Part shown: positions 42,490-61,801 of the stretch, in pieces
Layout: each line of letters opens with the position of its first letter
Position numbering within the stretch: position 1 is the first letter of the stretch
Virus record (IMG/VR): IMGVR_UViG_3300042398_001385
Coordinates: 1 to 64,000 of that record
Length of the DNA: 64,000 bases
Reading direction: 5' to 3' (one strand)
Source: a virus
Made by a program: the position numbers and the translations under genes
The notes under the pieces: model-generated
The model's input: the letters and a program-made list of their open reading frames with translations, nothing else
Told to the model about the DNA's origin: nothing
Database searches by the model: none

Positions 42490-43203
42490 ATGGCAGAAAT
42501 GAAGCCTTATTGGTTTATAGAATCCCCTATAGATTTTGAATATAAGTATTACGTGCTTATGGCATATCTAATGAAGGTTAAAGGAAGCTTTGGTGAAAAT
42601 GGATTTGAAAAAAATTTCAAGCATCTATTGACGATTAAAAAAGATTTAGAGAGCTTTGTTAAAAATACAGAGCTTAGCCAAAAATCCAGAGCTAAAATGA
42701 CCGAAGACGAGAATGATAATTTTTATAATATATTAGATAGAAATTTAGATTCTATAGGAGAGATAGAGGAGATTGCTAAGAATTCTATAAGCGTTATAGA
42801 TAAATTCATAGAGGAGAATAGTAATTTTTACGAGAAATACAATTCCTTAGTAGATGTGGAAAGTTATTGTTCTAAATATAATCTGTGGGACCAGGGATTT
42901 TTAGTTATAAGAAAAAAAGAGGAAAGGACCATGAGAATATTTAATTGGTTTTTTTCTATAGTTAAAATAGCAAACAAAGAAAACGTAGCTTTATTAATGA
43001 CAGAGTTATTGGATCCTCTATGTGAAACTACTAGTGATATTAAAGGAATAAAAAAATTTCTTAAAGGAAACATAAGAGATTTTTCAGATCAGTATGACTG
43101 TATATTAGTAGCAGACATATCCAATGAGATTGATATGGAAATAGGGACGGAGTTAAGTAAGGAAAAATCTATAGATATTATAATGACTCGATTTAAGCAT
43201 TAG
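42490..43203 (+). CDS. Helical cytoplasmic protein, unknown
   Basis: The 237-residue, Lys/Glu-rich protein begins MAEMKPYWFIESPIDFEYKY and is largely alpha-helical (DNFYNILDRNLDSIGEIEEI). A conserved-looking KYNLWDQGFLVIRKK lies in the middle. No domain is recognised and there is no capsid-targeting-like start. Its last 11 bases overlap the convergent gene at 43193. Confidence 0.7.
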   Translation: MAEMKPYWFIESPIDFEYKYYVLMAYLMKVKGSFGENGFEKNFKHLLTIKKDLESFVKNTELSQKSRAKMTEDENDNFYNILDRNLDSIGEIEEIAKNSISVIDKFIEENSNFYEKYNSLVDVESYCSKYNLWDQGFLVIRKKEERTMRIFNWFFSIVKIANKENVALLMTELLDPLCETTSDIKGIKKFLKGNIRDFSDQYDCILVADISNEIDMEIGTELSKEKSIDIIMTRFKH

Positions 43204-43750
43204 CTTTTAAATCGTCCATCACAGATTTGGTTTCCTCTACTTCTTCATCTGTAAAATCGAATCTATCAAAAGGAAATTTATCTGCCTTAAAAAGATAAAC
43301 TCTTTCTTCTCCAGCTTCATCTTCTGTTACAACTTCTATTTTAGATCCGTGTCTGTTGATATAAAAATCTGCTCCTCTTCCGTTTTTAAGAATCTTGTTT
43401 CTTATAAAAAGAATAGCTCCTCCTGGCATTTTCGTTTCAGGCTCATATTCGCCAGCTTCTATAATTCTTTCTATCTCAGGGATAATCTTAATTATTTCAG
43501 AGAATGTTTTTTTAGCAAGATCATCTAATGATGAAATTTTCATTGTTGATGATATGAATTCGATTATTTCTTTTTTAAGTTCTGGCTTTTCTATAAAAAT
43601 AGATTTTAAGTCATCAACGAATGATTTGCTATTATAGCCATTTTTTGGATCATTGGAAGAATACTTAAATGGTATATTATAAGTTTTATCCATATTTCCG
43701 GCAGCACTGCTTTCATTTACAAATTGGTTAAAATTAAATATCCTTCTCAT
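43193..43750 (-). CDS. Putative internal head protein with T4-like capsid-targeting start
   Basis: The N-terminus MRRIFNFNQFVNESSAAG closely follows the T4 capsid targeting sequence MKTYQEFIAEA: aromatic, two residues, F, hydrophobic, x, E, then a small residue. Cleavage after Glu13 (V-N-E/S) is predicted by the gp21 rule. The remaining 172 residues have a helical half and a C-terminal alpha/beta half ending in acidic helices. No enzyme motif is seen. The ATG overlaps the upstream TGA (ATGA). Confidence 0.7.
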   Translation of the reverse strand: MRRIFNFNQFVNESSAAGNMDKTYNIPFKYSSNDPKNGYNSKSFVDDLKSIFIEKPELKKEIIEFISSTMKISSLDDLAKKTFSEIIKIIPEIERIIEAGEYEPETKMPGGAILFIRNKILKNGRGADFYINRHGSKIEVVTEDEAGEERVYLFKADKFPFDRFDFTDEEVEETKSVMDDLKANA

Positions 43751-44175
43751 ATTCTATTCGTTATAAGTTTTTTTCTTTCCTCAAATGTCATAGGATTAGA
43801 GGATATCATATCTTTTCCTATTTTAGATATACTTTCCTTATCAAATTTATCGAAAGATGGCTCGCCATCCTTAGAAGAAGATTCTGGTCTACATTCTAAA
43901 AATCCCTCAAAATCTTTTAATTCTAAAAAAACCCCTTGTGAAGTTACACTCAGAAGATCATCCTTAATTAATTTTATTCTTGACCATATAGGTTTTAATA
44001 TATTAGGTTCTCCTATTGTTTCTATTTCATATGAAGATATTACCTCCACATAGAGATCTTTTTTTACCACATAAGAAGATCCACCTGCTTCTAATCCATA
44101 TTTAGATTTAAAATCAGATGTAAAATTATCTATCTTGGATATTTTATTCATTTCTACATATATATCAGATTCCAT
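43747..44175 (-). CDS. Hypothetical protein paired with a CTS-like gene
   Basis: I start at the ATG at 44175 (MESDIYVEMNKISKIDNF); a longer reading frame would begin with TTG and consume the divergent promoter gap. The 142-residue protein alternates strands and helices (SYVVKKDLYVEVISSYEIET), ends with FEERKKLITNRI, and is coupled to the next gene by ATGA. No family is known. It is transcribed divergently from the 44213 operon. Confidence 0.6.
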   Translation of the reverse strand: MESDIYVEMNKISKIDNFTSDFKSKYGLEAGGSSYVVKKDLYVEVISSYEIETIGEPNILKPIWSRIKLIKDDLLSVTSQGVFLELKDFEGFLECRPESSSKDGEPSFDKFDKESISKIGKDMISSNPMTFEERKKLITNRI

Positions 44176-44186
44176 AGGATAAAAAG

Positions 44187-44202
44187 ATATATAGTATAAA
44201 AG
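44187..44202 (+). promoter_or_regulatory. Promoter-like element ATATATAGTATAAAAG
   Basis: This 16-mer lies 10 bp before the ATG of the first internal-protein gene of the plus-strand block. It matches the 16-mer at 54420-54435 (minus) at 15 of 16 positions, which lies 7 bp before another core gene. It is AT-rich like T4 late promoters (TATAAATA) but longer. The short leader implies nearly leaderless mRNA if transcription starts just downstream. Confidence 0.4.
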
Positions 44203-44212
44203 TATTAACAAA

Positions 44213-44944
44213 ATGGTGATCAGAAGTTATTCACAATTTATATCAGAATCTAAATCTAACAGAGGGGGATATGATATTAGCCAATATACAGATGAAATGT
44301 ATATGTTAGAAAGCGAATATTTAAGACTTCAATCAGAGGGTTTAAACGAGGAGGAAATTAACGAAAATATATTTACTTCATTTTTTAGCTCTTTAGGAGG
44401 TGGTTTTACTGACACGTTTAAAGATTATATAATAGATTGGGCAGCTCAAAAATTTGGTATCGATCCTTTCGATGAGAGCGGACAACCAACTTTTTTCTAC
44501 CAAGTTATTAGAAACGTAATAGAGCAGGTACATTTTACAGATCTAGGAAAATATTTCGGGTCTGGATCATGTAAAAATTGGGCTACTGCTATTATAGAAG
44601 GTTTATCTGAAACATTACAAGAAAGAGGAATAGAATATTTATTACCTAGATTAGGTATGAAAATAGACATGACCGAAGGAATGGGAGGAACTATAGCAGC
44701 AGGATTAAGAGAGGCTTTAACAAACGCTATAAATAATACTTCTTTCATGAATAACATAGAGAAGATGATAAGCGATAAAATATGTGGATTTAAACTTGGA
44801 GACGTTTTATCTGGTGGTAATGTTACAACTTCAGATAAACAGAAAATTCAAGGACAGATAGAAGCAGCTGGTGAAAAAAATCCAGATATATATACACAAG
44901 CAATGAGATCTGGCTTATCCAGTGTTCTCCAATTTAATAAATAA
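44213..44944 (+). CDS. Putative internal head protein with capsid-targeting start and Gly-rich amphipathic segment
   Basis: MVIRSYSQFISESKSN fits the T4-type targeting motif, with a predicted cut after Glu12 (I-S-E/S). Other possible cuts follow MLE/S and LNE. After the last comes NIFTSFFSSLGGGFTDTFKD, resembling segments that follow predicted cuts in the 297- and 328-residue core proteins. The rest is helical with small-residue-rich parts (GGTIAAGLREALTNAINNTS). 243 residues. It is the first of three tightly spaced plus-strand genes. Confidence 0.7.
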   Translation: MVIRSYSQFISESKSNRGGYDISQYTDEMYMLESEYLRLQSEGLNEEEINENIFTSFFSSLGGGFTDTFKDYIIDWAAQKFGIDPFDESGQPTFFYQVIRNVIEQVHFTDLGKYFGSGSCKNWATAIIEGLSETLQERGIEYLLPRLGMKIDMTEGMGGTIAAGLREALTNAINNTSFMNNIEKMISDKICGFKLGDVLSGGNVTTSDKQKIQGQIEAAGEKNPDIYTQAMRSGLSSVLQFNK

Positions 44945-44949
44945 AAAGG

Positions 44950-45201
44950 ATGAATCAGAAAAACGTAAAAAAAAGAGAGATCCTAAGCTATAAGGATTTT
45001 ATGAAGGTCGTTAGCGATCCTTGGAATCCTGATAATCTTAGTAAGGAAGACAGAACAGGGTTACATAAAATATCACCTGAATCTGCATACGATTATGTGG
45101 GATATAAAGATGCTATTTTTAATAAAACATCTAAAATAGATTACCCAGGATATGGCGCTACTGAATCAGGAAGTGCTGCTTCAATAGGAATAACTGAATA
45201 A
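44950..45201 (+). CDS. Small putative internal head protein
   Basis: The 83-residue protein has EILSYKDFMKVVSDPWNP near its start, similar to the targeting motif (Tyr-x-x-Phe-hydrophobic) but without the usual Glu at the cut position. The rest is Tyr/Gly-rich and probably unstructured (ESAYDYVGYKDAIF; DYPGYGATESGSAAS). It lies 5 bp after the upstream stop and 12 bp before the acidic-repeat gene. Confidence 0.6.
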   Translation: MNQKNVKKREILSYKDFMKVVSDPWNPDNLSKEDRTGLHKISPESAYDYVGYKDAIFNKTSKIDYPGYGATESGSAASIGITE

Positions 45202-45213
45202 AAAACATAAAAA

Positions 45214-46047
45214 ATGGATAAAAAAATATTATCTTTCGAAGAATTTAGCTCAAAAAAACCTCAAGAATTGCCAGAAGAGAATGAATTCTGGAATGATATG
45301 GAAATAGAGGAGGAGGAAGAAGAAGAAGATGAAGAGGACGACATGGACCTAGAAGACGAAGAGGAAGATGACATGGACCTAGAAGACGAGGATGAAGAGG
45401 AAGATGACATGGACATGGAAGACGAGGACGAGGATGAAGACGAGGACGAAGAGGAAGATGACATGGACCTAGAAGACGAGGATGAAGACGAGGATGAAGA
45501 CGAGGATGAAGACGAGGATGAAGACGAAGACGAAGACGAGGATGAAGACGAGGATGAAGACGAGGATGAAGACGAGGATGAAGACGAAGACGAAGACGAG
45601 GATGAAGACGAGGATGAAGACGAGGATGAAGACGAAGACGAGGACGAAGACGAGGACGAAGACGAGGACGAAGACGAGGACGAAGACGAGGATGAAGACG
45701 AGGACGAAGACGAGGATGAAGAGGAAGATGACATGGATCTAGGAGACGAGGATGAAGAGGAAGATGACATGGATCTAGGAGACGAGGATGAAGACGAGGA
45801 TGAAGAGGAAGATGACATGGATCTAGGAGACGAGGATGAAGACGAGGATGAAGAGGAAGATGACATGGATCTAGGAGACGAGGAAGAAGAAGACGATGAA
45901 GAAGATGAAGAGGACGACATGGACCTAGAAGACGAAGAGGAGGAGGAAGAAGAAGAAGACACAGAAGAGGAGGATGAATCCGAATTAGAAGGTGAAGAAA
46001 ATAATGAAGTAGAGGTTATACGATTCGATAACTTCTTCGGTAAATAA
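45214..46047 (+). CDS. Hyperacidic Asp/Glu repeat protein with capsid-targeting-like start
   Basis: The start MDKKILSFEEFSSKKPQEL resembles the capsid-targeting motif. From about residue 29 to 260 the protein is almost only Asp and Glu: a central strictly alternating (Glu-Asp) run of roughly 80 residues, flanked by nine D-D-M-D-L/M motifs (four before, five after). It ends with VEVIRFDNFFGK. In T4 the core protein gp67 also has a long acidic tail, so an enlarged acidic core protein is the best analogy; a DNA-mimic effector is an alternative. A terminator follows 20 bp after the stop. Confidence 0.75.
   Translation: MDKKILSFEEFSSKKPQELPEENEFWNDMEIEEEEEEEDEEDDMDLEDEEEDDMDLEDEDEEEDDMDMEDEDEDEDEDEEEDDMDLEDEDEDEDEDEDEDEDEDEDEDEDEDEDEDEDEDEDEDEDEDEDEDEDEDEDEDEDEDEDEDEDEDEDEDEDEDEDEDEDEDEEEDDMDLGDEDEEEDDMDLGDEDEDEDEEEDDMDLGDEDEDEDEEEDDMDLGDEEEEDDEEDEEDDMDLEDEEEEEEEEDTEEEDESELEGEENNEVEVIRFDNFFGK
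45297..45960 (+). repeat. Acidic codon microsatellite, GAAGACGAGGAT-type units
   Basis: The DNA is a low-complexity array of 6 and 12 bp units (GAAGACGAGGAT, GAGGATGAA) with three longer units containing GATGACATGGATCTAGG near the 3' end. It encodes the Asp/Glu tract. Units are nearly identical, so copy number is likely to vary by slippage or recombination. Confidence 0.9.
45481..45600 (+). repeat. Exact 60-bp tandem duplication inside acidic tract
   Basis: Bases 45481-45540 and 45541-45600 are identical over all 60 positions, and 45601-45630 repeats the first 30. Silent differences (GAT/GAC, GAA/GAG) elsewhere in the tract are not shared so exactly, so this looks like a recent duplication. 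Confidence 0.93.
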
Positions 46048-46067
46048 TTTTTCCATTAAACATATTT

Positions 46068-46096
46068 AAAGCCCAGATTGATTCCGGGCTTTTTCT
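46068..46096 (+). terminator. Rho-independent terminator
   Basis: AAAGCCC (46068-46074) pairs with GGGCTTT (46086-46092) across an 11 nt loop, followed by a T-rich stretch. It lies 20 bp after the acidic-repeat stop and just before the RimK-fusion gene, so it should close the internal-protein operon. Confidence 0.8.
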
Positions 46097-46117
46097 TTGT
46101 TTATCGATATATACATT

Positions 46118-47617
46118 ATGGATTACTCATTACTAGAAAAGTTTGTATTTAAGGGAGTTAAAGGAAAGGAAAGACCCTTAACAGTTGTTATATTAACTAC
46201 TAAACTTGGTAAAAGTCTAAAAAATGCTCCAACAACAGATAAGATAATGAAAATCTGTGAGGAGAAGGGAGTTAGATGTATAATAATAGATACTGAAAAA
46301 GGATCTATACAAAAAACAATAAAAGGAACTTTTCTTATATCAAGCAGAGGGGGAAAACAACAAGAAATACATCTGGATAGAACCATAGTATTAACTAGAA
46401 GATCGTCTATAAAAAACAATGCAGCTAAGGGATTTTTTAAAAAAATGGAGGATCTAGGTTTTCCGTGTGTCAATTCCTATGATTCTGTTATTATATGTGA
46501 AGATAAACTACAGACTACAAGAAAATTACAGTTAGCTAAAATACCTGTTCCTAAAACATCATTAATATCATCTGAAGCTGATATAGATAAAGCAGTAGAA
46601 GAGGTTGGTGGTAATTATCCAGTTGTTTGTAAATTTCTATCAGGAACTAAAGGAATAGGTGTATTTATGATAGACTCTAGACCATCTCTAGTTTCTACCT
46701 TACAGGCTTTGTGGCACTTAGCACCAGGGACTGAAATAGTTTTACAAGAAAAAATAGATGCAGATTACGATCTTAGAATACACGTAGTTGCAGAAAGTGA
46801 TGGTATGGCAAGTAGAGAATACAAAGTCATAGCAGCAATGAAAAGAATAAAAATAGAGGGGGATTTTAGAACTAATTTTTCTTTAGGTGGTGAAACGGAG
46901 AATGTTAAGCTTTCGAAAGAAATAGAAAGGATAGCAATAGAATCTGCTAAAGCTACCGGATGTTTATGGTGTGGTGTAGATATTATAGTAGAAAAAGGAA
47001 AAAGTACATCAGCAGAGGAAAAACCTTATGTTCTAGAGGTTAATGCCTCTCCCGGAACTACTGGTATAGAAAAAACAACTGATATTCCTGTAACAGATAT
47101 GGTAGTAGATTTTCTTTTAGATAAGAAAAACTGGGTTAAACCTAAGAAAACTACCGGATTTAGAGAAATGGTGACTATATCTGGAGTAGGAACTTTTGTA
47201 GGTAAATTAGATACTGGTAACGGAGCAACTTCTTGTAGTTTACATGCAGACAGCATAGAGGAATCCGATGGTAAAGTTTACTGGAAGCTAGGTAATCAAG
47301 AATTTGTAAATAAAATAGTAGGTCAATCAAAAGCTGAGGTTGGTGAAAAAATACACCACAGAGCGGTTGTTAATCTCGATGTAGATTTCAATGGTCTTGT
47401 ATATAAGAAAGTTAAGTTCTCATTAGTAGATAGAACTGAAAAAAGTACCCCATTATTACTAAACAGGGATTTTTTAAGTTCCGCCGGATTAGTTGTAGAC
47501 CCTTCGGAGGATTTTGTTTTAACTGACAGACCTGAGGGATATTCACCAAAAGATGCAAAAGGAGATCCTATAGCTGGGGTTAAGGTAGTTAAATCAAACG
47601 GGAATTCCGAGAAATAA
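46118..47617 (+). CDS. RimK-like ATP-grasp ligase fused to RimB-type retropepsin domain
   Basis: I use the ATG at 46118 (MDYSLLEKFVFKG); a TTG-started extension would overlap the terminator. Residues about 105-330 are an ATP-grasp domain: TRKLQLAKIPVPKTSLI, PVVCKFLSGTKGIGVFMI, QEKIDADYDLRIHVV, AAMKRI, and PYVLEVNASPGTTGIE. This is RimK-type, the family that adds glutamate to ribosomal protein S6 C-termini. Residues about 345-490 match the RimB/retropepsin-like protease domain: GKLDTGNGATSCSLHAD, and LLLNRDFLSSAGLVVDP. 499 residues. Such fusions could add and trim poly-amino-acid tails. The 3' end overlaps the convergent asnB gene by 24 bp. Confidence 0.88.
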   Translation: MDYSLLEKFVFKGVKGKERPLTVVILTTKLGKSLKNAPTTDKIMKICEEKGVRCIIIDTEKGSIQKTIKGTFLISSRGGKQQEIHLDRTIVLTRRSSIKNNAAKGFFKKMEDLGFPCVNSYDSVIICEDKLQTTRKLQLAKIPVPKTSLISSEADIDKAVEEVGGNYPVVCKFLSGTKGIGVFMIDSRPSLVSTLQALWHLAPGTEIVLQEKIDADYDLRIHVVAESDGMASREYKVIAAMKRIKIEGDFRTNFSLGGETENVKLSKEIERIAIESAKATGCLWCGVDIIVEKGKSTSAEEKPYVLEVNASPGTTGIEKTTDIPVTDMVVDFLLDKKNWVKPKKTTGFREMVTISGVGTFVGKLDTGNGATSCSLHADSIEESDGKVYWKLGNQEFVNKIVGQSKAEVGEKIHHRAVVNLDVDFNGLVYKKVKFSLVDRTEKSTPLLLNRDFLSSAGLVVDPSEDFVLTDRPEGYSPKDAKGDPIAGVKVVKSNGNSEK

Positions 47618-49607: not shown

Positions 49608-51620
49608 TTATGCTGCACTAACCCCGTCGGCGTATGTCATTTTTCCTCCTGCTGCCTTAAGTACTTTTAATAGAGTAGATTTTAAGTTATCTCCTGTGTA
49701 TGTCTTGCCTTTAAATGTCATGCTCCTACCTCCTTTGTCCCATGTACCTCTTATTGCTGTAGCAATCTTTCCTGTATATGTTCCCGTGTTAAATTGCCCT
49801 TGGTCATCAAAGAATATGAACAATTTACTAAGATCAGTATCCCAGTCTAAACTTACATTAAGATATCCTTCAACCCACCATCTTTTTCCTTCAGCATCCC
49901 ATTTTAGATCTTTACCTAGCCATTCAGCAACCTTAGATATTTCTTTAGCTTGGTTCATTTTTCTTGCTTCTGCAAAATTTAATTTACATTCTATAAAATC
50001 AGATAAGTCTTTTTCTGCGCCCATCAAAGAAAATTTTATCGTCTTAGATGATTTTTTGTAAGTTCCTGGGTAGCTTTTAAATGATGTAAATTTACCAGGT
50101 AAGTAGTATTTATAATCAGTATTTCCTGCCCTGTATATAACTGCTGTTACATATCCTGCAGTTCCGTAGGATATTGTACTTTCTACATAATATCTTTTTT
50201 CCTTATCAGAATCTATAGTAGATTTGCTGTTATATTTTTTAAATTCTGTGAATAGATCCTCCATCTCCTGAATACTTAATTCTCTAGAATCTAATAATTC
50301 GCTATCATATTTAGAACCGTATTCTTTCCATGCTTTTCTTATATAGCTGTTATTATGATCTCCTTCTTTATCCAAATTGTTATTTTTTGCCCAATCTCCT
50401 TGATTTTTAATTACCCATTCTCTAAATTTATTTCCTTCAGTCTCATTTGCAAAAGGGGTTTTAGGTAGTTCATCCATTTTAAATTTTGGAGGAGCGGTAG
50501 AAGAAGATTTAGAGCCGGAAGATTTAGAACCAGAAGATGATCCAGATCCTCCTTTACTCATAGCAGCAATAGCAGCATCAACATCAAAATCGTCCGATTC
50601 ATTAACTCTGTTTCTCATAAAATCAGAGAAAGTTACTATCTTATAATTATTGTCTATAGAAATACTCTCTTTCAGACTTGTTAGAACCTCTACGAATGCT
50701 TTGGTTATATTACCTGTAGTATCTCCGGATAATGTTGTATATTTTTTAACCAATCCTGCTTTAACCCCCCTTATAACGTTTGCAGTATTTGCTCTTAAAG
50801 TAGGACCAGGATTACTAGGATTTTTATATACGATTTTCCAATCTGGCTGTTCCGCTAATTTTGTACTTTTATATTTATTATAAATTAGTAACTTAACTGC
50901 CTTTATTGTCTCTGCTTGTTTTCCAGTATAAGCAGCTTTTCTTTGTACAATTGTTTCTGCTACTTCTATTTTACCCGTTGATCCTGTACCTCCTGTACCT
51001 CCTGTACCTCCTGTAGATCCTTTTACATTTAATTTTGTTAAATATAATTTAGCCTCGTCAAATAGATCTTTAATTTCTTGTATTTTAGTTTCTAACTCTC
51101 TGTTTGATTGATCTACTGGTCTTTCTTCTATATCTTTGTTCTTGTCGTCTGACCATTTTTTAGAAAGTTCCTCGTACTCAGTAGCTATTTCTACGTATTG
51201 ATCTCTAAGTGTTCTTATTATAACATCATCCTTTCCTATTTCGAATTCACCGCCCTCTTTTTTAGCTTTGTCGTACGTACTAACTAAAAGATCTAGAACT
51301 CTATTTTTAAGAGAGTTCATAGAATCTAAATTTGTTTCGTAGTATTTATATCCAGCAGATCCACTTCTAGCAGTATTCATCATCGAGCTAACTTCTGCCA
51401 TTATCTGATCTCTTAATAGCTCAAGAGCATTTATGAAAGCATTCGTTTTAAATTTTCCGCTAGCATCTGAAAATTTATCCTCGTATTTTTTTTTCTTTCT
51501 GTTTACTCTATCAACCTTATCCCCGGATGCTGTTCTATCTTTACCTCTAGCCTCTTCTAGGGGAGATACAGATTTCATGTTTTCTAATAGGGAAGAAAAT
51601 TTATTGCTAAAATATTTCAT
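49608..51620 (-). CDS. Large putative internal head protein with two targeting-like motifs
   Basis: The 670-residue protein starts MKYFSNKFSSLLENMKS (targeting-like, cut after LLE or PLEE). A coiled-coil part of about 190 residues follows, then the Gly-Thr linker GSTGGTGGTGGTGSTG, then a helical part resembling the neighbouring 196-residue protein. A second, internal motif near residue 330, IVTFSDFMRNRVNESDDFD, suggests fusion of two tagged proteins. Then come a Ser-rich stretch and a globular end with FREWVIKNQGDWAKNNN and YIRKAWKEYG, a pattern seen in small cell-wall-type modules, uncertain. It is the last gene of the head operon. Confidence 0.65.
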   Translation of the reverse strand: MKYFSNKFSSLLENMKSVSPLEEARGKDRTASGDKVDRVNRKKKKYEDKFSDASGKFKTNAFINALELLRDQIMAEVSSMMNTARSGSAGYKYYETNLDSMNSLKNRVLDLLVSTYDKAKKEGGEFEIGKDDVIIRTLRDQYVEIATEYEELSKKWSDDKNKDIEERPVDQSNRELETKIQEIKDLFDEAKLYLTKLNVKGSTGGTGGTGGTGSTGKIEVAETIVQRKAAYTGKQAETIKAVKLLIYNKYKSTKLAEQPDWKIVYKNPSNPGPTLRANTANVIRGVKAGLVKKYTTLSGDTTGNITKAFVEVLTSLKESISIDNNYKIVTFSDFMRNRVNESDDFDVDAAIAAMSKGGSGSSSGSKSSGSKSSSTAPPKFKMDELPKTPFANETEGNKFREWVIKNQGDWAKNNNLDKEGDHNNSYIRKAWKEYGSKYDSELLDSRELSIQEMEDLFTEFKKYNSKSTIDSDKEKRYYVESTISYGTAGYVTAVIYRAGNTDYKYYLPGKFTSFKSYPGTYKKSSKTIKFSLMGAEKDLSDFIECKLNFAEARKMNQAKEISKVAEWLGKDLKWDAEGKRWWVEGYLNVSLDWDTDLSKLFIFFDDQGQFNTGTYTGKIATAIRGTWDKGGRSMTFKGKTYTGDNLKSTLLKVLKAAGGKMTYADGVSAA

Positions 51621-51632: not shown

Positions 51633-52223
51633 TTATACTTTTTTTGTTTCCTGTTTAGCTTTTTCTAAAGTAGTTAATGCGTTAGTTATAAACTCTTTAA
51701 CCGCTGTAACTAAAGCAGTATTTGTAATTTCTGTCCCATATTTTTGCGAATAAGCTGACAGTAACTGAGATATCTTAGCAACTCCTTTATTTATTGAATC
51801 GTAAGCCTTTTTAAAATCCTCTGAGCTTTCTGCTATCTTTTTTACCTCTGTAGAAGCATTCATTGTCTGCCATTTAGTAATAATATCTTTAGAAATTATG
51901 TCCAAATTTATATCAGCTTTTTGTGAGTTTAATTTAATAAAATCAAACATCTCTGCTGCATATCTAGCTTTAACAGTTTCGTCAGTTATAGAATTCATAA
52001 AATAATTATACTCATCATATATTAACTGAAATATCTTAACAGCATATTCAGTGGCATATTTTATTTTATATTCTGATGTTCCTGGTTTTAAAAAAGCACC
52101 AGTACCTCCAGTAGATCCTTGATCTATAAGTGTTTCTCCCTCCTCATTTATTCTTGAATATTTCTTAGCAGTTTCTGTAATAGATTCAAAAAGAGGGTTA
52201 TATTCTAATCTTTTATTGTACAT
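51633..52223 (-). CDS. Helical putative core protein
   Basis: The 196-residue protein has NPLFESITETAKKYSRINEE near its N-terminus, similar to NPVFESLRSSLNEG in the 866-residue protein, with a possible cut after R-I-N-E. A GSTGGTG linker follows, then a helical domain: YATEYAVKIFQLIYDEY and the end ALVTAVKEFITNALTTLEKA. The last parts resemble the middle of the 670-residue protein (ETIKAVKLLIYNKY; KAFVEVLTSLKES), suggesting paralogy. The upstream sequence contains a TATAAATA. Confidence 0.65.
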   Translation of the reverse strand: MYNKRLEYNPLFESITETAKKYSRINEEGETLIDQGSTGGTGAFLKPGTSEYKIKYATEYAVKIFQLIYDEYNYFMNSITDETVKARYAAEMFDFIKLNSQKADINLDIISKDIITKWQTMNASTEVKKIAESSEDFKKAYDSINKGVAKISQLLSAYSQKYGTEITNTALVTAVKEFITNALTTLEKAKQETKKV

Positions 52224-54509: not shown

Positions 54510-56294
54510 TTAGATGATAGCAGTAGCAGTTCCAGTGTTAACGTGGAAGCAGAAATACATTGTTTCTGGGTGGTGACCAGCCTCAACTAAAGAGTAACGA
54601 GATTTAACCGCGATTTTAGGAGACATAGTACCCTCAGAGATAGTCTGGATTGACTCAGCCATCATGTAAGGCATGAATTTCATACCTGGCTCATCATCAG
54701 CACCTTTTCTACCAACTAATACTCTAGTGTCACCGAATGACATGTTTTGATCAACATATACAGTCATACCAGCAAGTGAACCTACAGGGTATAATGTACC
54801 GTTGTTTTGAGTAAGTGTGTTAGTAAATGGAGCGAATGTGAACTGACTGATGTCTTGTAAAGCAGACGCGATTTGAGAGTTAGTAACGATGAAGTTAGCA
54901 GGACCTCTACGACCTCTGTTAGCAACTACGTTAGCAGCAGCTAAGATACGAGAGTAAAGTCTTCTTTGAACTGTTGATAAGTTCTCGAAAGTACCTGAAG
55001 CAGGACCAGCAACTGCACCTGGTTTAGAACCACCTGTGATAGCAGTACCTTGTTTACCGATGTAGTTAGGAACTGTATAAGTAGCAGCACCACCAATTAC
55101 TAAGTTTAAGTTAAGGTTTGTGTTCTCTGTTACTAAGAACTGAGAGTGGTTAGACCATCCTAGAGCGTATGCTCTTGATAAGATGTGCTTGTTAATAGCT
55201 TGAGAAACCTCGTTAACAAGTGCGTTCTCGATCATAGAAACTACGTCGATACCGAACTGCTTGTTAAGGTCTTGGATTTGCTCAGTAGTAACAGAAGCAG
55301 CAACTTGGAAAGTACCAGCTTCTACGAACTTAGTGAAAGTAGAAAGACCTAATGACTTGTAATAAGTTGTCTCACCTACTCCTCTTAACATAGGATCGTA
55401 GTTTTTAGTACCGTCTACGTATGGACCTTGCCAATCGTTATCGTTTTCAGGACCAGCTCCAGAGAAACCTTGGATATGATCTTCTAACGTTTTAACTAAT
55501 ACAGCGTTACCAGCAGTAGAAGCAGCTAAAGAACCAACGTTAACTGATGTTAAAGCAGTACCAGTAGTCCATGTAGTTGCATAGATATCAGCAGTACCAG
55601 CAGCAGGAATTACCTGAGCGATAGAGTCGCCGTTACCGATAGCAAGGATTCTGAAAATAGGGAAACCGTCGATACGTGAGTTACCGATGAATACACCGAT
55701 TGCAGCGTTACCACCTGTTGCAAGGTTAACTGAAGAAGAAAGACCAACACCGATTACATAATTATCACCTACTACAAGACCAGTTGCTGGAGAAGCAATA
55801 GCCGTAGGGATTTTAATCATGTCAGGAGTGTTAGCTACATAGTTGCTAGTAGAATCAGCTGAACTACCAGCTAATGAACCACCTGCATATACGTAGTCTA
55901 GGTAAGATAATACTCCAGTAGGACCAGCCATAGGAATAACAGGAACGATGTCAAAACCAACGGTTTTAGCAGCTACCTGAATAGCCAATGGAAGTAATGA
56001 TGGGAATTTATCACCAGAACCAACATATGGACGACCAGCGTCATAAGTGTTGTTGTAGTAGAAACCAGCAGGACCCGCACCAGCTGCACCACCTTGGTAG
56101 TTACCAGCAGGAAGTACGTTACCCATACCGTTTAATACGCCTAGAGAGTTATAAGCTCCGGCAGATTCGTTTAATGAATGGAAGTGGCAATATTTAGATA
56201 ACCACTCTACCTTTGAACGATCCGTCATACCGGTCTTACTCTCGATAATTGGAGACCACGTTTCGTAAATCTCGTTTTCGTTTAAGAGTTGCAT
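54510..56294 (-). CDS. Major capsid protein, T4 gp23-like
   Basis: The 594-residue protein matches gp23-type capsid proteins: SKTGMTDRSKVEWLSKYCHF leader; GAGPENDNDWQGPYV, LGLSTFTKFVEAGTFQVAAS, then QIQDLNKQFGIDVVSMIENA, NRGRRGPANFIVTNSQIAS, GSLAGMTVYVDQNMSFG and PYMMAESIQTISEGTMSPKI, VKSRYSLV. The prohead protease should cut after Glu43 (S-L-N-E/S). The gene's codons favour GTT, GCT, GGT, CGT and AAC over the AT-rich codons of its neighbours, as for very highly expressed genes. It lies 9 bp after the protease-scaffold gene, and a terminator follows. Confidence 0.95.
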   Translation of the reverse strand: MQLLNENEIYETWSPIIESKTGMTDRSKVEWLSKYCHFHSLNESAGAYNSLGVLNGMGNVLPAGNYQGGAAGAGPAGFYYNNTYDAGRPYVGSGDKFPSLLPLAIQVAAKTVGFDIVPVIPMAGPTGVLSYLDYVYAGGSLAGSSADSTSNYVANTPDMIKIPTAIASPATGLVVGDNYVIGVGLSSSVNLATGGNAAIGVFIGNSRIDGFPIFRILAIGNGDSIAQVIPAAGTADIYATTWTTGTALTSVNVGSLAASTAGNAVLVKTLEDHIQGFSGAGPENDNDWQGPYVDGTKNYDPMLRGVGETTYYKSLGLSTFTKFVEAGTFQVAASVTTEQIQDLNKQFGIDVVSMIENALVNEVSQAINKHILSRAYALGWSNHSQFLVTENTNLNLNLVIGGAATYTVPNYIGKQGTAITGGSKPGAVAGPASGTFENLSTVQRRLYSRILAAANVVANRGRRGPANFIVTNSQIASALQDISQFTFAPFTNTLTQNNGTLYPVGSLAGMTVYVDQNMSFGDTRVLVGRKGADDEPGMKFMPYMMAESIQTISEGTMSPKIAVKSRYSLVEAGHHPETMYFCFHVNTGTATAII

Positions 56295-56303: not shown

Positions 56304-58391
56304 TTATTTTTTAAATCTTTTTTCTAACTCTGCTGCGATATTCTGCATGTAAGAATTACTTACTCCCGAATTAGCAGGTTTGTTAGTGTTTAGAGATTCG
56401 CTTAGGAATTCAGTAGATTCCGGTTTTACAGAAACTAATCCTCTAGTTCTCCAAAAGTGATTGATCTGATAAGGAGTATCTAATTTGTAGAATTTACTTT
56501 GAGCTACAATTGCACCTCTTTGAGATTCATTTAGACCTTCCCATGTAGGAACTAAATCACCAGGGATCATGTCAAGGAATTTTTCTCCGGAATTAGCTTG
56601 TTCAGCTAAAGCGGACCCCATAATTTGAACTACATCCGTACCCGAATTATAGTTCTGCTCGTTAAGAGCTTTAGCGACCTTTTGTTTTTCGGCCTCGTTC
56701 AAGGATAAAAATCCTTTCTTCGTTCTGTCATCGACAAGCTTTAAGAAAGAATATTTATTTTCGTTTATGATTTCGTCAGTTTTTACGTTACTAACTGATT
56801 CAATTAATTTATCAACTTTTGAAGAAAGATTTGTATAATCTCCAGAGAATCCTGAAGTTCTTCTACCTTCATTAATAGACTCGTTTACGTTCTTTGCAAG
56901 ATTTGTTCTTGTGTTTCCTCCTCTATTAATAGACTCTGCTAAATATTCAGTATAATCGATACCAGATTTAACTTTTTCAGCGATATAATCTGAATAATTA
57001 ATATTGCCATTTAACTTCTCTCCTAAGTAGTCAGAATAAGTAATATTTTGATCTAATTTCTCTCCTAAATAATCGGAGTAAGTAATGTTCTTGTCTAAGT
57101 TCTCAGCAAGATAATCAGAGTAAGAAATATTCTTGTCTAAGTTTTCAGCTAAATATTCAGAATAAGTAATATTCTTGTCTAAGTTTTCAGCTAAATATTC
57201 AGAATAAGTAATATTATTATCTAAGTTTTCTCCAAGATACTCAGAGTAAGAAATATTCTTGTCTAAGTTTTCAGCTAAGTATTCAGAATAAGTGATATTT
57301 CTATCTAGGTTTTCAGCTAAATATTTACTGTAAGCTATATTGTTATCTAGATTCTCTGCAATATATTCAGAGTAAGAAATATTTCCATCAACATGCTCAG
57401 CAAGATATTTAGCATAAGAAATAGACTTGTCTAAATTTTCTGCTAAGTATTTGTTATAAGAAATAGATCCTTCTAAATTTTCAGCTAAATAATCTCCATA
57501 TTTAATAGCTGTTTCTAAATTTTCAGCTAGATACTCAGAGTATTTTTCTAATCTTTGGATTCTTTCCTCTAAACCAGAATCTGAAAAATCTGATGTTGAT
57601 CTAGTAGAAGGTCCTTTAGAAACAGATCTAAGTTCATTTTTTAATGAATCCATTTCCTTTTTAAGGATTAATGAATATTCGTTTAGCTCTTCTGCAGTGA
57701 CAAAGTTATTGTCCATGTTTCTTGAATTATTTATGTTTTCTTTTAAAAGCCTAGAGATTTTCTCCGTATCTTTTATTCTATATATCTGAGTGTTAGAATT
57801 TTTTCTAAGCCCAAAACTTTCATTTATGTTAGTTAATGAAGAAATAATTGAATCTTTTACTGATTCTGATGGAATATGTGATCCTAAGCTTTCATAAACC
57901 CTTTCTAATTGAGCATTTTCGAATCCAGGATCAGCAACTAGATCATATGTAAAAATTTTCTTAATTTCTACTTTTTTATTCTCCTTAACGTTACCTGCTG
58001 CTCTAGAAGAGATAGAAATAGGAATACCTGCATCAATTAAATTTTTAGCTATTTTACCAGCGGGGGTATCTAAAAGTTTTACTTTTATTTTTACGTTTCT
58101 ATTAGATTTATCGTATGAAAGATCCGTAATAACGTGTGATATATTTTTAAGAGAAACGTCGAACTCCTTAGGGTGATCTAATTCACCAACTAATCTATTC
58201 TGATCAATTTTCTTTCTAAGATAATCCAAATGAGGCAAGTATTCGTTTTCCTCATAAATTCTGTGGTTAGAGTTTTCAACTCCAAAAACAGCAGCAATAC
58301 CTTCAAGAAAATATTCTCCTCCTTGCTTTTTAGTGCTAAGGTTATGAGAAGATTTCTCTAATATCAGTACGTAATCTAGGTTATTTTCCAT
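56304..58391 (-). CDS. Prohead protease (gp21-like) fused to scaffold with fifteen 14-residue repeats
   Basis: Residues 1 to about 175 are a gp21-like serine protease: YFLEGIAAVFGVENSNHRIY, VGELDHPKEFDVSLKNISHV with the catalytic His, GIPISISSRAAGN with the Ser, and YDLVADPGFENAQL. Residues about 284-493 are fifteen tandem repeats of 14 residues (YSEYLAENLDKNIT-type), predicted double-heptad coiled coil. The end (about 500-695) contains several L/I-N-E sites (SLNE/A, GLNE/S, SINE/G), as expected of a self-destroying scaffold. In T4 protease and scaffold (gp22) are separate. Start: ATG at 58391, an A-rich leader. Confidence 0.9.
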   Translation of the reverse strand: MENNLDYVLILEKSSHNLSTKKQGGEYFLEGIAAVFGVENSNHRIYEENEYLPHLDYLRKKIDQNRLVGELDHPKEFDVSLKNISHVITDLSYDKSNRNVKIKVKLLDTPAGKIAKNLIDAGIPISISSRAAGNVKENKKVEIKKIFTYDLVADPGFENAQLERVYESLGSHIPSESVKDSIISSLTNINESFGLRKNSNTQIYRIKDTEKISRLLKENINNSRNMDNNFVTAEELNEYSLILKKEMDSLKNELRSVSKGPSTRSTSDFSDSGLEERIQRLEKYSEYLAENLETAIKYGDYLAENLEGSISYNKYLAENLDKSISYAKYLAEHVDGNISYSEYIAENLDNNIAYSKYLAENLDRNITYSEYLAENLDKNISYSEYLGENLDNNITYSEYLAENLDKNITYSEYLAENLDKNISYSDYLAENLDKNITYSDYLGEKLDQNITYSDYLGEKLNGNINYSDYIAEKVKSGIDYTEYLAESINRGGNTRTNLAKNVNESINEGRRTSGFSGDYTNLSSKVDKLIESVSNVKTDEIINENKYSFLKLVDDRTKKGFLSLNEAEKQKVAKALNEQNYNSGTDVVQIMGSALAEQANSGEKFLDMIPGDLVPTWEGLNESQRGAIVAQSKFYKLDTPYQINHFWRTRGLVSVKPESTEFLSESLNTNKPANSGVSNSYMQNIAAELEKRFKK
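56913..57542 (-). repeat. Fifteen 42-bp tandem repeats encoding scaffold coiled coil
   Basis: From 57542 down to 56913 the gene has fifteen in-frame 42 bp units. Central units (copies 7-11) are nearly identical at the protein level (YSEYLAENLDKNIT/S); the outer ones are diverged (YGDYLAENLEGSIS; YTEYLAESINRGGN), as expected if expansion occurs in the middle. Confidence 0.93.
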
Positions 58392-58413: not shown

Positions 58414-61014
58414 TTATGCTTCAGATTCTTCTTCTCCTTCAGCTTTAGCTCCAGAGGATGCTGATACAACTGAATCAGTGATTTCTTCCATAGATTCAGA
58501 TAATTTTTCTAAATCCTCTTCAGTTATGTATTTAAGATTCTCTGAAAGCTTAGGTTCGTTAGCATTTAATTTTCCTACTGCTGCAACACAAGCGTCTTTA
58601 GCATTTTCAAATTCTATTGGTGCTCCATTGATAGGATTTCGGGTTTTAAATGATTTAGGGAATGAAGGAATAGTGTCCATATCAGTAACCATATCTTTAA
58701 AGAATCCTCCAGCTCCACCAGAAGTGATAGAAGCTATATCACCTTCTAAGCTTCCGCCTCCAAATGATGAATATTGTCTTTTAACTAAACTCCATACTGA
58801 AACTGCTTTACCGTCTCCTGTATCAGTAAATGTACCTCTACAAAGAATAAGGGTAGAGTATATTGCTAGTAAGTCTTGCGAAGATACGGTACCACCTAAG
58901 CTGTTGTATAAACCTCTAGCCATTGCTCTAACTGCTATTTCTTCTATGAATCCATTAAATACTAATACAGCGACCGTTTTTCTATCGCTTCCTGCCCATT
59001 TTGCTATAGTGGTTCCTCCGATTATTCCACCTCCCCATAAAATACTAGCACCTACTGCTCCACTACCTAAAGTTGCTGCTGTAGCCATACCTGTACCTAC
59101 TGCACCTGCTGTAAATGTTGTTGTTGCAGCACCTGCTCCTATCGTTGCTGCTGCTGCTGCAGATCCTACTCCCCAAGTAAGTACTCCTGCTCCTATAATA
59201 ATACCAGCAACTAATGCTCCTTTAGCTACATCGCCAAACCATTCTGCCCAGCTTTCGTCGTATAATAATCCATATGTTCCATCGTCTACTGGTTTTAAAC
59301 CTTTCCATTTTATTTCTTCTCCAGTTGCGCCAGTTTCTCCAGTTGTACCAGTTTCTCCAGTTGCACCACCAGTTGCACCAACACAATCAAGAACTTTTCC
59401 TTGTTCTAGAGATTTCTTAACGCAATTATCAACGATTTTTTTCTTTCCTATATTAGGATCTGGAACTACTGCCTTAGCTCCGGGAGTTTCTTCAGATTTA
59501 CCCCTTAATCTATCAAATACGTTTTCTTCGTCTAATTTTCTAAAGCTATATGATTCTTCTATAACTGAATAGAAATCCTCGAAAGATAAAATAGGAGATC
59601 CTTTTATCTCTTCTCTTTCTTGGATCTTTTCGTCGATTTCCATTTCTTCGAAATCGTCAAAATAATATCTACCGTAACTTCCTTCAAAAACTATAGATGT
59701 AGTATCTATATCTGTAGAATTAAGAGCCATTAATTGATCGTACATATCCTGAGTTAAATCAGAAGTTAAAGCTTGACCTGATTGACCTGATAAATATCCC
59801 CATACTATATTTACTACTGCTGCAGTACCTTTACCGTATATTTTGTCTTGACCTCCAAATTTTGCTAAATATGTATTTGCTGAAGGAATTAATTCCATTA
59901 ATTTTTTCTGAAGATCCCCTATTTGTGTACATTTGTTATTAAGTTTAACAGGGAATGTACAATCTTTAACTGGTAGAGGTGTAACTTTCTTTTTCTTCTT
60001 AACAACTTCTTCTTCACCTGTTGCAACATCTACACATTTTCCTAATGATTTGTCGTAAACCTGTCCTGGAGGACAAACAGGATCTGCAGTTACTGGTTGT
60101 TCTATATTAGTAAGAGATGCTTTTAATCTTTCGTATTCTTTTTTCTGTCTAATAATTTCATTTACTAGATCGTCTTGCTTTCTCTTATATTCCCCAGCTT
60201 TAAATTCTCCTGAAGGAGTAACAATTTTTCCTCCTAAAGCACCTGCTCTGTCTACCATTTGTAGTTCTTGTGCTTTTTTATAAAGAGAATCTGCAATTTC
60301 TTTGTATCTTTTTATATCTGAATTATCCTTCAAATTTGGTAAGTATTTGTCTCTGTCTACCATACCAACAAAAGAATTTGCTGCATCTAACGATTCTTTA
60401 GATTTGTTAAAAGCCTGTCCTCTAAATTCTCCATCTGTAGCATCAGCTTCGTCTCCAGTTTTTCTTTTTTCAGATAAACCTTCTTTAACTACCAATCCCT
60501 TTTTAATTACTTCTCCGAAAAGTTTAGGATTAGTTTTTCTCATCTGATTTTCTCTGTCTTTTAAATCGTTAGAGAAGTTTTCAAGAACTTTAGCTATAGT
60601 ATCGTTTTTAATACTCTTATACATTTTAGGATCTCCTAGAACAGCTTCTACTTCACCGCTTAGTATACTAGTAATCATTTTTAGGTTTGAATCGTAAGCT
60701 TGTTTTTGACCTGGGTCCAATACTGCTAATGATTCTATAAAAGAAATAAGATACTGTCTAAAAGATCCAAAATTATCTGTTGACAGAATTTTATTTTTTA
60801 TAGATTCAAATCCTCTAACAGTTTTAGCATCCTCCATTTTGGAAGATAGTATTAAACTAAAAAGAGTATTTAAAGCAGTAACAACAGCTGTCATTGTGTC
60901 GATAGCTTTTGTTTTTCTTGATGTTCTTTCTCCTTCGTTAAGTGAGCTTCTTAAACTCTCGAAAACTGGGTTAATTCCGCCGTAGATGTCTTTTTTCATA
61001 TTATTATTATTCAT
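58414..61014 (-). CDS. Large head-associated protein with hydrophobic Gly/Ala segment and collagen-like linker
   Basis: The 866-residue protein starts MNNNNMKKDIYGGINPVFES with SSLNEG soon after, a predicted cut at residue 27. The N-terminal half is helical. Around 330 is CPPGQVYDKSLGKC, and IGDLQKKLMELIPSANTYL to YGKGTAAVVNIVWGYLSG resembles a peptidoglycan-binding-type fold, uncertain. Near 500 comes ILSFEDFYSVIEESYS, an internal targeting-like motif. Then a Gly-Ala-Thr collagen-like linker, then about 90 residues rich in Ala/Gly/Ile (AGIIIGAGVLTWGVGSAAAA), likely membrane-active. The gene lies 22 bp before the protease gene. A pilot or ejection protein is possible. Confidence 0.65.
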   Translation of the reverse strand: MNNNNMKKDIYGGINPVFESLRSSLNEGERTSRKTKAIDTMTAVVTALNTLFSLILSSKMEDAKTVRGFESIKNKILSTDNFGSFRQYLISFIESLAVLDPGQKQAYDSNLKMITSILSGEVEAVLGDPKMYKSIKNDTIAKVLENFSNDLKDRENQMRKTNPKLFGEVIKKGLVVKEGLSEKRKTGDEADATDGEFRGQAFNKSKESLDAANSFVGMVDRDKYLPNLKDNSDIKRYKEIADSLYKKAQELQMVDRAGALGGKIVTPSGEFKAGEYKRKQDDLVNEIIRQKKEYERLKASLTNIEQPVTADPVCPPGQVYDKSLGKCVDVATGEEEVVKKKKKVTPLPVKDCTFPVKLNNKCTQIGDLQKKLMELIPSANTYLAKFGGQDKIYGKGTAAVVNIVWGYLSGQSGQALTSDLTQDMYDQLMALNSTDIDTTSIVFEGSYGRYYFDDFEEMEIDEKIQEREEIKGSPILSFEDFYSVIEESYSFRKLDEENVFDRLRGKSEETPGAKAVVPDPNIGKKKIVDNCVKKSLEQGKVLDCVGATGGATGETGTTGETGATGEEIKWKGLKPVDDGTYGLLYDESWAEWFGDVAKGALVAGIIIGAGVLTWGVGSAAAAATIGAGAATTTFTAGAVGTGMATAATLGSGAVGASILWGGGIIGGTTIAKWAGSDRKTVAVLVFNGFIEEIAVRAMARGLYNSLGGTVSSQDLLAIYSTLILCRGTFTDTGDGKAVSVWSLVKRQYSSFGGGSLEGDIASITSGGAGGFFKDMVTDMDTIPSFPKSFKTRNPINGAPIEFENAKDACVAAVGKLNANEPKLSENLKYITEEDLEKLSESMEEITDSVVSASSGAKAEGEEESEA

Positions 61015-61801
61015 TGTATATATTTGAATATGCTTTAGAGATTAACTCTATTATCTTTTCTATATATCCTTCATTTCTTAATTTTTTAAATGCTAGATTT
61101 TCAACGGAAAATTCCCCTTCCCTCTCCAATCCTTCCTTTCGCATTTTCATTATTTTTTTCTTTATTTCTAAAGAATGATTATAGAGTTCAACCTCAGTAG
61201 CGGTTGAAAAATCGGATGCTGCCATTAGATTTTCCATCTTTAGTATATCTGAAACGATACCTTGAAATTTTAAATCTACGTCTTTGTAGTCAATCTCTGG
61301 TGGATTATACTTAGGAACTCTGATCCATTCGTTATTTAATAAAGAATATAAACCAGATGCAGTATGTGGCTCGTTGATGCCCTGTACGTATAATTCTACG
61401 TCGAATCCTCTTATTTTTATTTTGTGTCTAAGATTCCATATAAATCTTACACCATCAACTGCTTTTTTAACAAGGGTAAAGTTGTCATCAATCTCATTGA
61501 AGTCTATTAGAACATGTACGTCTAAATCAGATTTGTCTGTCCAGTTATAATTGGCTAAGGAACCAGTTAGTTGGATATCTCTTATTTCTGGATCGAATCC
61601 TAGTGATGAATAAAAATCGTTAGCTAACTCAATAAGTTTTTTTCTTAGTTTCTGGTCAAATTCATAATTTTCTGCTCCAGCACTTTCGGGAAGATCCTCA
61701 CTAATTTTTTTCCAGAATGACGGATTTAATTCTTTTTTATAAAAATCACTCCTTTCCTCGTTTTCTAGAACCCAAGAATAAAAATTTAAAATGTTTTTCA
61801 A
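61007..61801 (-). CDS. Nucleotidyltransferase with capsid-targeting-like start
   Basis: The start is a TTG at 61801 (an in-frame stop lies just upstream and no suitable ATG follows), giving (M)KNILNFYSWVLENEERSD, a targeting-like motif with a cut expected after V-L-E. The domain that follows has IQLTGSLANYNWTDKSDLDV, the G-S-x(9-10)-D-x-D signature of the pol beta/MNT nucleotidyltransferase fold, then HVLIDFNE and the third acidic residue in IKIRGFDVELYV. A helical C-terminal half follows. 264 residues. By analogy to T4 Alt it could be a packaged enzyme. Substrate unknown. Confidence 0.78.
   Translation of the reverse strand: MKNILNFYSWVLENEERSDFYKKELNPSFWKKISEDLPESAGAENYEFDQKLRKKLIELANDFYSSLGFDPEIRDIQLTGSLANYNWTDKSDLDVHVLIDFNEIDDNFTLVKKAVDGVRFIWNLRHKIKIRGFDVELYVQGINEPHTASGLYSLLNNEWIRVPKYNPPEIDYKDVDLKFQGIVSDILKMENLMAASDFSTATEVELYNHSLEIKKKIMKMRKEGLEREGEFSVENLAFKKLRNEGYIEKIIELISKAYSNIYNE

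Follow-up and report, generated by a model that had tools for sequence, protein, structure and literature searches.

Why should several genes beside the head genes of a large uncultured virus begin with nearly the same few residues? The question is posed by IMG/VR virus record IMGVR_UViG_3300042398_001385, a linear contig of 153,314 bases, of which bases 1–64000 make up the 64,000-base stretch analysed here, the window. The original prediction, made from these letters, was that seven protein starts resemble the T4 capsid targeting sequence (CTS), most of them with a hydrophobic-x-E cut site, and that a gp21-like protease is encoded nearby. We find a short N-terminal tag on mostly unrelated proteins, enriched in other large phages and accompanied by a gp21-type protease gene. 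From sequence comparison we conclude that the tags probably direct proteins into heads, as a capsid targeting system of the T4 kind that is much enlarged and has been recoded lineage by lineage. We are less confident that every weak example is also head-directed.

The tag and its spread across phages

A simple dicodon caller gave 163 genes for the entire contig, so some start positions may be off; coordinates quoted as names of minus-strand genes are 3′ ends. The T4 sequence used for comparison is MKTYQEFIAE, and the tags here place an aromatic, a second aromatic, a hydrophobic residue and Glu at T4 spacing (T4 residues 4, 7, 8 and 10). In the propeptide of T4 IPIII, residues 4 and 7 mainly govern targeting and residues 8 and 10 processing, and Asp at residue 10 blocks processing while still allowing targeting (PMC9026906).

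All seven strings stand at the starts of the reading frames named for them. Full T4-type spacing, defined as aromatic or Ile-x-x-aromatic-hydrophobic-x-E, is found in four: 43193 (FNQFVNE), 44213 (YSQFISE), 61007 (FYSWVLE) and 52252 (IHEFVLE, with Ile as first residue). Two more, 45214 (ILSFEEF) and 44950 (ILSYKDF), have the targeting half with no Glu in register, so that the cut site claimed for most starts is in register in four of seven. The spacing is absent from 49608 (FSNKFSSLLE), which was rejected as a T4-type tag. The set is real, but the actual tagged set is far larger and lies mostly outside the window: about 23 tagged genes were counted by eye on the contig, six of them in the window. 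Starts beyond it include MKNISKFDHFLSEA (124884), MKNILTFDLFLSEN (134377), MKKYIKLFEEFVFE (136027), MKHLKIFEDF (135220) and MKHIRLYENF (146327).

Enrichment was measured with pattern C, [ILV]..[FYW][polar].[FYW] in the first 20 residues, against a background of internal 20-mers. It was set on this contig, where it occurs in 21 of 161 N-termini and in 42 of 2049 internal 20-mers. The excess is marginal over the window as a whole (5 of 57 complete genes, 1.2 expected, p = 0.006), higher at 43–62 kb (5 of 18 genes, p = 2.5e-5) and in the rest of the contig (16 of 103 genes, p = 4e-10), and greatest at 120–147 kb, where 15 of 35 genes match with 0.7 expected (p = 1e-16). Because the pattern was chosen after viewing the contig, the independent tests are those on the uncultured 462-kb phage LR756500 and on two IMG/VR phages, G010 (482 kb) and G017. 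Pattern C, unchanged, matches 54 of 668 N-termini in LR756500 (135 of 5985 internal, p = 3e-13), 89 of 710 in G010 (112 of 6364, p = 1e-37) and 49 of 406 in G017 (72 of 3912, p = 1e-20). The last two were fetched later because the tag scan described below had matched them, a choice biased toward some tag; the scan sites among the matches listed are three in G010 (loci L144 and L152) and one in G017 (L169), against 89 and 49 by pattern C. Pattern CE, used for the hydrophobic-x-Glu that follows, is also enriched in all four (12 of 161 here, 28 of 668 in LR756500, 50 of 710 in G010 and 32 of 406 in G017). There is no enrichment of pattern C in PTm1 (6/306), T4 (5/262), PAU (3/290), MaF61 (2/181), phiKZ (6/357), MA9V-1 (2/256) or Lak-B5 (14/583 vs 155/7187 internal).

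A scan of IMG/VR with one strict DNA pattern for MK[HYND]hKx[FY]Ex[FY]hxE (h, hydrophobic) found MKHIKLFEQFINE-type starts in at least 120 stretches, compared with none for a codon-permuted control; the same strict pattern has three matches in about 85,000 prokaryote genomes. The 80 loci listed of these stretches hold 111 tagged reading frames, three of them shorter than 40 residues. At one locus (L145, 6261–12107, minus strand) ten tagged genes lie within 6 kb, nine with distinct bodies. A tblastn search of cultured phages with the tag peptide gave no match even at an E value of 10, a result that is uninformative because LR756500, which has a similar tag, was also missed. In favour of chance, with a loose pattern chosen after the fact, is the modest excess in the window (5 against 1.2). 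As an account of the whole set, chance is untenable, given the p values of 3e-13 to 1e-37 in three phages unused in setting the pattern, the seven unenriched control or distant phages and the empty permuted control. Individual weak members, 44950 and 49608, may still be chance matches or proteins not targeted to the head.

A motif-free test led to the same phages and added two. The first 16 residues after Met were compared for likeness, with one random internal segment per protein as control, and proteins with at least three look-alikes were counted, some paralogues included. At a threshold of 24, the count was 17 of 154 here (controls 0 and 1) and 21 of 285 in PAU (controls 6 and 0), with little signal in PTm1 (5/280), MaF61 (1/175), MA9V-1 (2/249), T4 (4/247; controls 1 and 0) and phiKZ (2/336). 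At 28, eight remained here, 20 in PAU (controls 0 and 0) and two in PTm1, with none in MaF61, MA9V-1, T4 or phiKZ, and the counts were 43 of 618 in LR756500 (control 2), 30 of 545 in Lak-B5 (control 1), 100 of 683 in G010 (control 1) and 50 of 391 in G017 (control 0). PAU and Lak-B5, unenriched for pattern C, have shared starts of their own by this test. The wording of the tag differs between lineages: MKHIKLFEQFINEA in the IMG/VR set and G010, MKYIKEYEEFILEA in LR756500 and MKTLSKLYESKLNEA in PAU. As an expression the PAU tag is MKx[LI]xxL[YF]E, with [KR]LNE next in seven of its 20 tagged genes. The Lak-B5 tag is KKxLYESIMKSVSKTVKKKLNE, carried by seven genes when counted by expression; the motif-free count of 30 for this phage includes ordinary paralogues. 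Lak-B5 (MK250024) has a further shared start, MNKxIKKLVESLFDDD, on about six genes, perhaps a second tag, and MA9V-1 has three starts of the MKNFFSFINEA kind.

The bodies behind the tags are mostly unrelated. Clustered beyond the first 25 residues at an E value of 1e-3, the 23 bodies of this contig form 22 clusters, the 18 of PAU form 18, the 30 of LR756500 form 19 and 107 from IMG/VR form 74. These figures leave recent gene duplication, by which the starts would be alike through common descent of whole genes, unsupported as a general cause, and we consider it very unlikely despite the existence of paralogue sets: 12 of the 30 LR756500 bodies make up one cluster, ten paralogues starting MKRIINYKTFINESSG form a run in G017 (39510–47427, plus strand; loci L349–L350), and the genes at 126677 and 128354 of this contig are alike. 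Codon use hints at copying of the tag DNA, which would also suit duplication. Leucine codons differ most between tags and bodies (CTA 0.39 vs 0.15), those of Lys, Tyr and Asn differ slightly, and those of Ile, Phe, Glu and Gln are alike. Tagged genes, here picked by a loose expression, often adjoin one another (observed and expected adjacent pairs are 22 and 6.6 in G010, 16 and 3.4 in G017, 13 and 1.9 in LR756500, 7 and 1.0 in PAU, and 6 and 1.7 here), and they are not limited to the head gene region.

Protease, capsid protein and internal capsid proteins

The nearby gp21-like protease of the original prediction is borne out. A gp21-type prohead protease with a fused C-terminal repeat region is encoded at 56304–58391 on the minus strand (domain ~57927–58346, repeats ~56913–57542), next to the capsid gene. 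It matches Pfam Peptidase_S77 (PF03420; E = 1e-9, 38.6 bits against 27) and phrog_207 (1.1e-38), and its modelled domain, residues 16–155, has the T4 gp21 fold (5jbl_B; Z 15.2, root mean square deviation 2.5, 134 residues aligned). Tagged contigs of 100 kb or more number 18, and 17 of them have phrog_207; the one without it, G003, is a linear record and perhaps a fragment.

The C-terminal region of the protease consists of 15 tandem 14-residue repeats, YSEYLAENLDKNIT, with the same order, aromatic-x-x-aromatic-hydrophobic-x-E, as the tags. AlphaFold models the fusion poorly outside the protease (mean predicted local distance difference test score, pLDDT, 53), the repeats being mostly one long helix at ~33. 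Counted with a loose expression, repeats are present in this contig, in LR756500 and in 16 of 17 IMG/VR fusions, the remaining one not having been extracted. Among the 16 are a pair that look the same and one that agrees with LR756500 in both length and hits. There are 0–2 repeat hits in PTm1, MA9V-1 and MaF61, phages without this tag or with few tagged genes. The presence of repeats tracks ancestry, and six other internal segments score higher under a tag profile than the repeats do (11.1 and 10.8). The comparison is only suggestive of a tag that imitates the repeats of the protease-scaffold fusion (YSEYLAENL), and a scaffold of cut sites to which tags would dock by likeness is an attractive idea more than an established one.

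The major capsid protein (54510–56294, minus strand), which we take to be T4 gp23-like, matches by tblastn the PTm1 and PAU genes annotated as major capsid, Lak phages and LR756500. Its T4 kinship also agrees with the PAU entry in a table of PMC5646251. It is closest to LR756500 (42%), followed by Lak phages (38–40%), other huge uncultured phages (29–32%) and cultured phages of Tenacibaculum, Flavobacterium and Chryseobacterium together with PAU (27–31%; PAU itself 31%). The hosts of most of these relatives, presumably Bacteroidota, point to a host in that group here as well.

Some capsid proteins themselves contain a tag-like stretch. The T4 protein that we take for gp23 has FGSFLTE at residues 59–65, with tag spacing at the end of a 65-residue propeptide, and the MA9V-1 capsid protein has WSEFINEA near its start, resembling that phage's own tags. 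In PAU, the capsid protein has a length of 520 of 585 residues (PMC5646251), which places the cut within one residue of L-M-E64/N65, not exactly at it. Scored with each phage's own tag profile, the first 80 residues of the capsid protein and the rest give 15.0 and 10.2 in PAU, 13.5 and 3.5 in MA9V-1, 8.6 and 3.7 in Lak, 7.5 and 5.3 in T4, 4.7 and 3.0 here, and 5.4 and 5.7 in LR756500. Co-evolution of tag and propeptide was considered and is not shown by these scores, as the tag profiles of foreign phages sometimes outscore the phage's own.

Separate, indirect support for a link between tag and head comes from Sphingomonas phage PAU. Five genes in its record carry the note 'internal capsid protein' (gp70, gp142, gp154, gp199 and gp270), and four of these have the PAU tag, compared with 20 of 290 called genes (Fisher p = 8e-5), of which two are probably tagged by chance. 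In gp199 and gp270 the tag is present at a distance from the head genes. With the two untagged genes noted as 'internal capsid vertex protein' (gp1 and gp10) added, the count is four of seven (p = 5e-4). The note is not merely a reading of the tag, since many tagged genes are un-noted and gp70 is noted without one. PAU gp152, noted as scaffolding, is itself tagged. The PAU structure paper leaves inner vertex structures to a later report (PMC5646251).

The PAU count, together with the match at residue positions important in T4, the lack of tags on nine large contig genes spot-checked (capsid, protease and seven others) and the gp21-type protease in 17 of 18 large tagged contigs, argues against a tag that sorts proteins to another place. 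On that account, which we regard as quite unlikely, the destination would be a phage-made compartment or a membrane, and the likeness to T4 would reflect convergence on a short amphipathic helix. It draws on the very large number of tagged proteins (100 of 683 in G010), on the many tags without Glu in register, on the spread of tagged genes beyond the head gene region and on the three PAU proteins noted as internal that are untagged.

A related possibility, doubtful in our view, is that only proteins with a hydrophobic-x-E within reach are packaged, those with MKHIKxFExF only being former cargo or chance. Cleavage of the CTS in T4 occurs at its Glu, and eight of the roughly 23 starts here have no such site within seven residues of the second aromatic. 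Against this stand the separation of targeting from processing in T4, where residues 4 and 7 mainly serve the former and Asp at 10 blocks only the latter, and the strong enrichment of the targeting half by itself.

The T4-like capsid-targeting reading, with its gp21-type protease, fits most of the comparative tests, namely the T4 residue match, the enrichment in three phages, the unrelated bodies and PAU. Several observations weigh on the other side. About 100 tagged proteins in one phage far exceed T4's handful. The single pattern tried for all relatives fails, being unenriched in the cultured relatives (PAU, PTm1, MaF61 and MA9V-1) and in Lak-B5. Of the ~23 starts on this contig, hydrophobic-x-E is in register in eight, a few residues later in seven and absent within that distance from eight; a strict 7-residue profile that includes Glu finds five of 163 N-termini here (0.5 expected) and 34 of 669 in LR756500 (4.5 expected). 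The protease count of 17 in 18 covers tagged contigs only, some of them near-duplicates (G008 and G014). Tag and capsid propeptide agree well in PAU and MA9V-1 and partly in T4 and Lak; the agreement is weak here, and LR756500 shows none. The PAU record gives no basis for its internal-capsid notes, and gp1, gp10 and gp70 are noted as inside the capsid and have no tag; our confidence in a head tag is slightly lowered because gp1 and gp10 are so noted.

We infer a packaging route of the following kind. An amphipathic tag, MK-x-h-x-x-aromatic-x-x-aromatic-h-x-E, would dock otherwise unrelated proteins onto the prohead core, the docking partner probably being the protease-scaffold fusion. Docked proteins would be enclosed as the gp23-like shell forms and cut by the gp21-type protease after Glu where one lies in reach; they would remain beside the DNA inside the head and enter the next host cell on delivery. 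The version of the tag is particular to each phage lineage, and each lineage has it on tens of proteins: for this 153-kb fragment the number is about 23, for the 482-kb contig about 100.

Tagged genes, their neighbours and possible cargo

Within the window, the gene at 43193–43750 (minus strand) encodes a tagged orphan protein of 185 residues that starts MRRIFNFNQFVNE/SSAAG (tag ~43709–43750). No PHROG entry matches it, nor does any Pfam family at the cut-off, and its IMG/VR relatives are too few or too close for a conservation test. On the plus strand, 44213–44944 encodes a 243-residue protein starting MVIRSYSQFISE/S (tag 44213–44251), with LNE and INE sites downstream of the tag, ahead of a Gly-rich stretch. 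Tag residues Y6, F9 and E12, as well as I3, S7 and S13, are identical in all seven relatives (65–100% identity; two have the same sequence as the query throughout), and residues 15–20, just behind the tag, vary most. The next gene, 44950–45201 (plus strand), encodes 83 residues with ILSYKDF at residues 11–17 and no hydrophobic-x-E in register. It is followed by 45214–46047 (plus strand), a 277-residue Asp/Glu-repeat protein starting MDKKILSFEEF, which has five neighbours by N-terminal likeness. Adjoining this last gene, 46118–47617 (plus strand) encodes an ATP-grasp ligase of the RimK type, whose C-terminal part gives a zinc-protease-like match that does not reach the cut-off; the ligase may modify its tagged neighbour, which consists almost entirely of Asp/Glu repeats.

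A 95-residue tagged protein starting MQNRIFKIHEFVLE is encoded at 52252–52539 (minus strand; tag ~52498–52539). The nucleotidyltransferase-like protein at 61007–61801 (minus strand; tag ~61763–61801) begins at a TTG codon with ILNFYSWVLE, a start made credible by TTG at the aligned position in 11 of 15 IMG/VR relatives. It matches phrog_36119, of unknown function (E = 1.2e-33), and its Pfam nucleotidyltransferase matches are weak and below cut-off. The tag is kept in most of the 15 relatives, F7 (0.80), W10 (0.67) and E13 (0.73) being among its better-kept positions; distant relatives at L296, L297, L300 and L301 have no Glu in register, and L298 has FSDFLFE.

Two large proteins contain tag-like segments internally. 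The 670-residue protein at 49608–51620 (minus strand) has an N-terminal FxxLLE motif and an internal IVTFSDFMRNRVNE (~50598–50639). Three distinct, diverged relatives (31–41% identity) all keep LLE or LIE at the N-terminal motif as well as the internal segment. The 866-residue protein at 58414–61014 (minus strand) has an internal PILSFEDFYSVIEE (~59554–59592) that is near-identical in two relatives with 54–56% overall identity. Such internal copies could be cut points of packaged polyproteins.

Outside the window, the genes at 126677–128338 and 128354–129997 (plus strand) form a paralogue pair with differing tags, and the sequences align directly after Glu (INE/DVATAKVWLLK and VNE/SVAPAKAWLLK), as expected from a cut there. 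Within the window, in the head gene block, 51633–52223 (minus strand) encodes a 196-residue protein with a spectrin-repeat-like Pfam match (27.8 bits, cut-off 27) and a start, MYNKRLEYNPLFESI, that by pattern is not a tag. Flanked by the head genes and by tail and baseplate genes, a run of sugar and methyltransferase genes at 26864–42335 (minus strand) includes a DAHP/KDO8P synthase-like gene, a SIS isomerase, a GDP-mannose 4,6-dehydratase, an epimerase and a family 11 glycosyltransferase, along with several FkbM-like and other genes judged by eye. Amid the baseplate and tail genes, 11068–12177 (minus strand) encodes a protein starting MKNKNFSFFEYDTEE in which two stretches match the RNA-binding S1 domain (Pfam S1, 1.2e-20).

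What might the tagged proteins do? From outside the window, 20 proteins of this contig (17 listed as tagged and three doubtful) gave no match at the Pfam cut-off. Among 83 distinct tagged proteins from IMG/VR, 23 Pfam families appear at E 0.001, mostly once each; they include cytidylyltransferase-like (2), 2′-5′ RNA ligase and Acb1 (2), acetyltransferase, pol beta thumb and leucine-rich repeat families. The Acb1-like family (L146 and L187, outside the window) has two HxT motifs in three of three members and a modelled 2H phosphoesterase fold (mean pLDDT 73), with Usb1, LigT, Acb1 and others at Z 9–11. The Acb1 profile scores 28.3 bits for L146 and 23.7 for L187 against a cut-off of 27, Acb1 itself (7t26) reaches a Z of 9.6, equal to or lower than other 2H enzymes, and PDB sequences give no match at E 0.1. 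We read these models as pointing to a 2H phosphoesterase, with the anti-CBASS enzyme Acb1 proper undistinguished from the LigT, CPDase or Usb1 type. In G010, a loose expression picked 69 starts, of which two run across piece ends and 64 of the other 67 were scanned. Several named Pfam matches fall on proteins judged by eye to be untagged, and ten clearly tagged proteins gave none at the cut-off. One of the proteins chosen by that expression weakly matches (E = 7e-5) a family of metallopeptidase domains that takes its name from a bacterial toxin.

A broader proposal, which we put forward tentatively, is a lineage-coded head address system in huge Bacteroidota-related phages. Each lineage would have a short tag of its own, fitted to that lineage's scaffold repeats or capsid propeptide and present on ~5–15% of its genes, and internal copies in large proteins would let one chain be cut into several packaged pieces. 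Each particle would then deliver tens of effectors, including candidate counter-defence enzymes (the tagged 2H Acb1-like phosphodiesterase, nucleotidyltransferases and acetyltransferases). The tag is probably an inventory of what these large, mostly uncultured phages bring into the cell along with their DNA, and we found no list of proteins injected by huge phages of this clade. If this is right, a readable tag would yield an injected-protein list from the genome, searchable for new counter-defence proteins, and lineage-specific tags could serve to fill the heads of large phages with proteins of choice.

Known head-targeting systems

Our literature search, with preprint servers and most subscription papers outside its coverage, returned no description of such tags in huge or Bacteroidota phages, and the term 'N-terminal' was not found in the accessible part of the Jug phage paper. 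A P1 proteome paper (PMC9024508) reportedly uses the term CTS. The phage P1 defence-against-restriction proteins DarA and Hdf, which are said to be tied to head morphogenesis and to counter host defence, are like the proteins here by description only.

In T4, ten residues of CTS are enough, a CTS attached to a foreign protein leads to its packaging and delivery, and internal proteins have very diverse bodies (PMC9026906, PMC3012670). One T4 internal protein inhibits a host restriction nuclease with high specificity (PMC3012670), and IPIII expressed without its CTS is functional in the cytoplasm of an IPIII-requiring host (PMC9391042). The CTS of IPI–IPIII and Alt and the tags here are alike as short N-terminal sequences on unrelated, hypervariable bodies, with an aromatic at i and i+3, in part of the tags here also a hydrophobic residue at i+4 and Glu at i+6, and a gp21-type protease in the same genome. 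Unlike T4, with its handful, the phages described here have tens of tagged genes each, a longer MKHIK lead-in, lineage-specific versions, many tags without Glu in register and internal tag copies in two large proteins.

Many head proteins are packaged and ejected in the giant phages SPN3US and phiKZ, where a prohead protease cuts after Glu. These phages differ in their long propeptides and A-x-E or S-x-E sites, and phiKZ has no shared short tag in our tests. A further parallel is PAU, with one common tag on four of five internal capsid proteins and a capsid protein 31% identical to the one here, but with another tag sequence and with scaffold and protease as separate genes.

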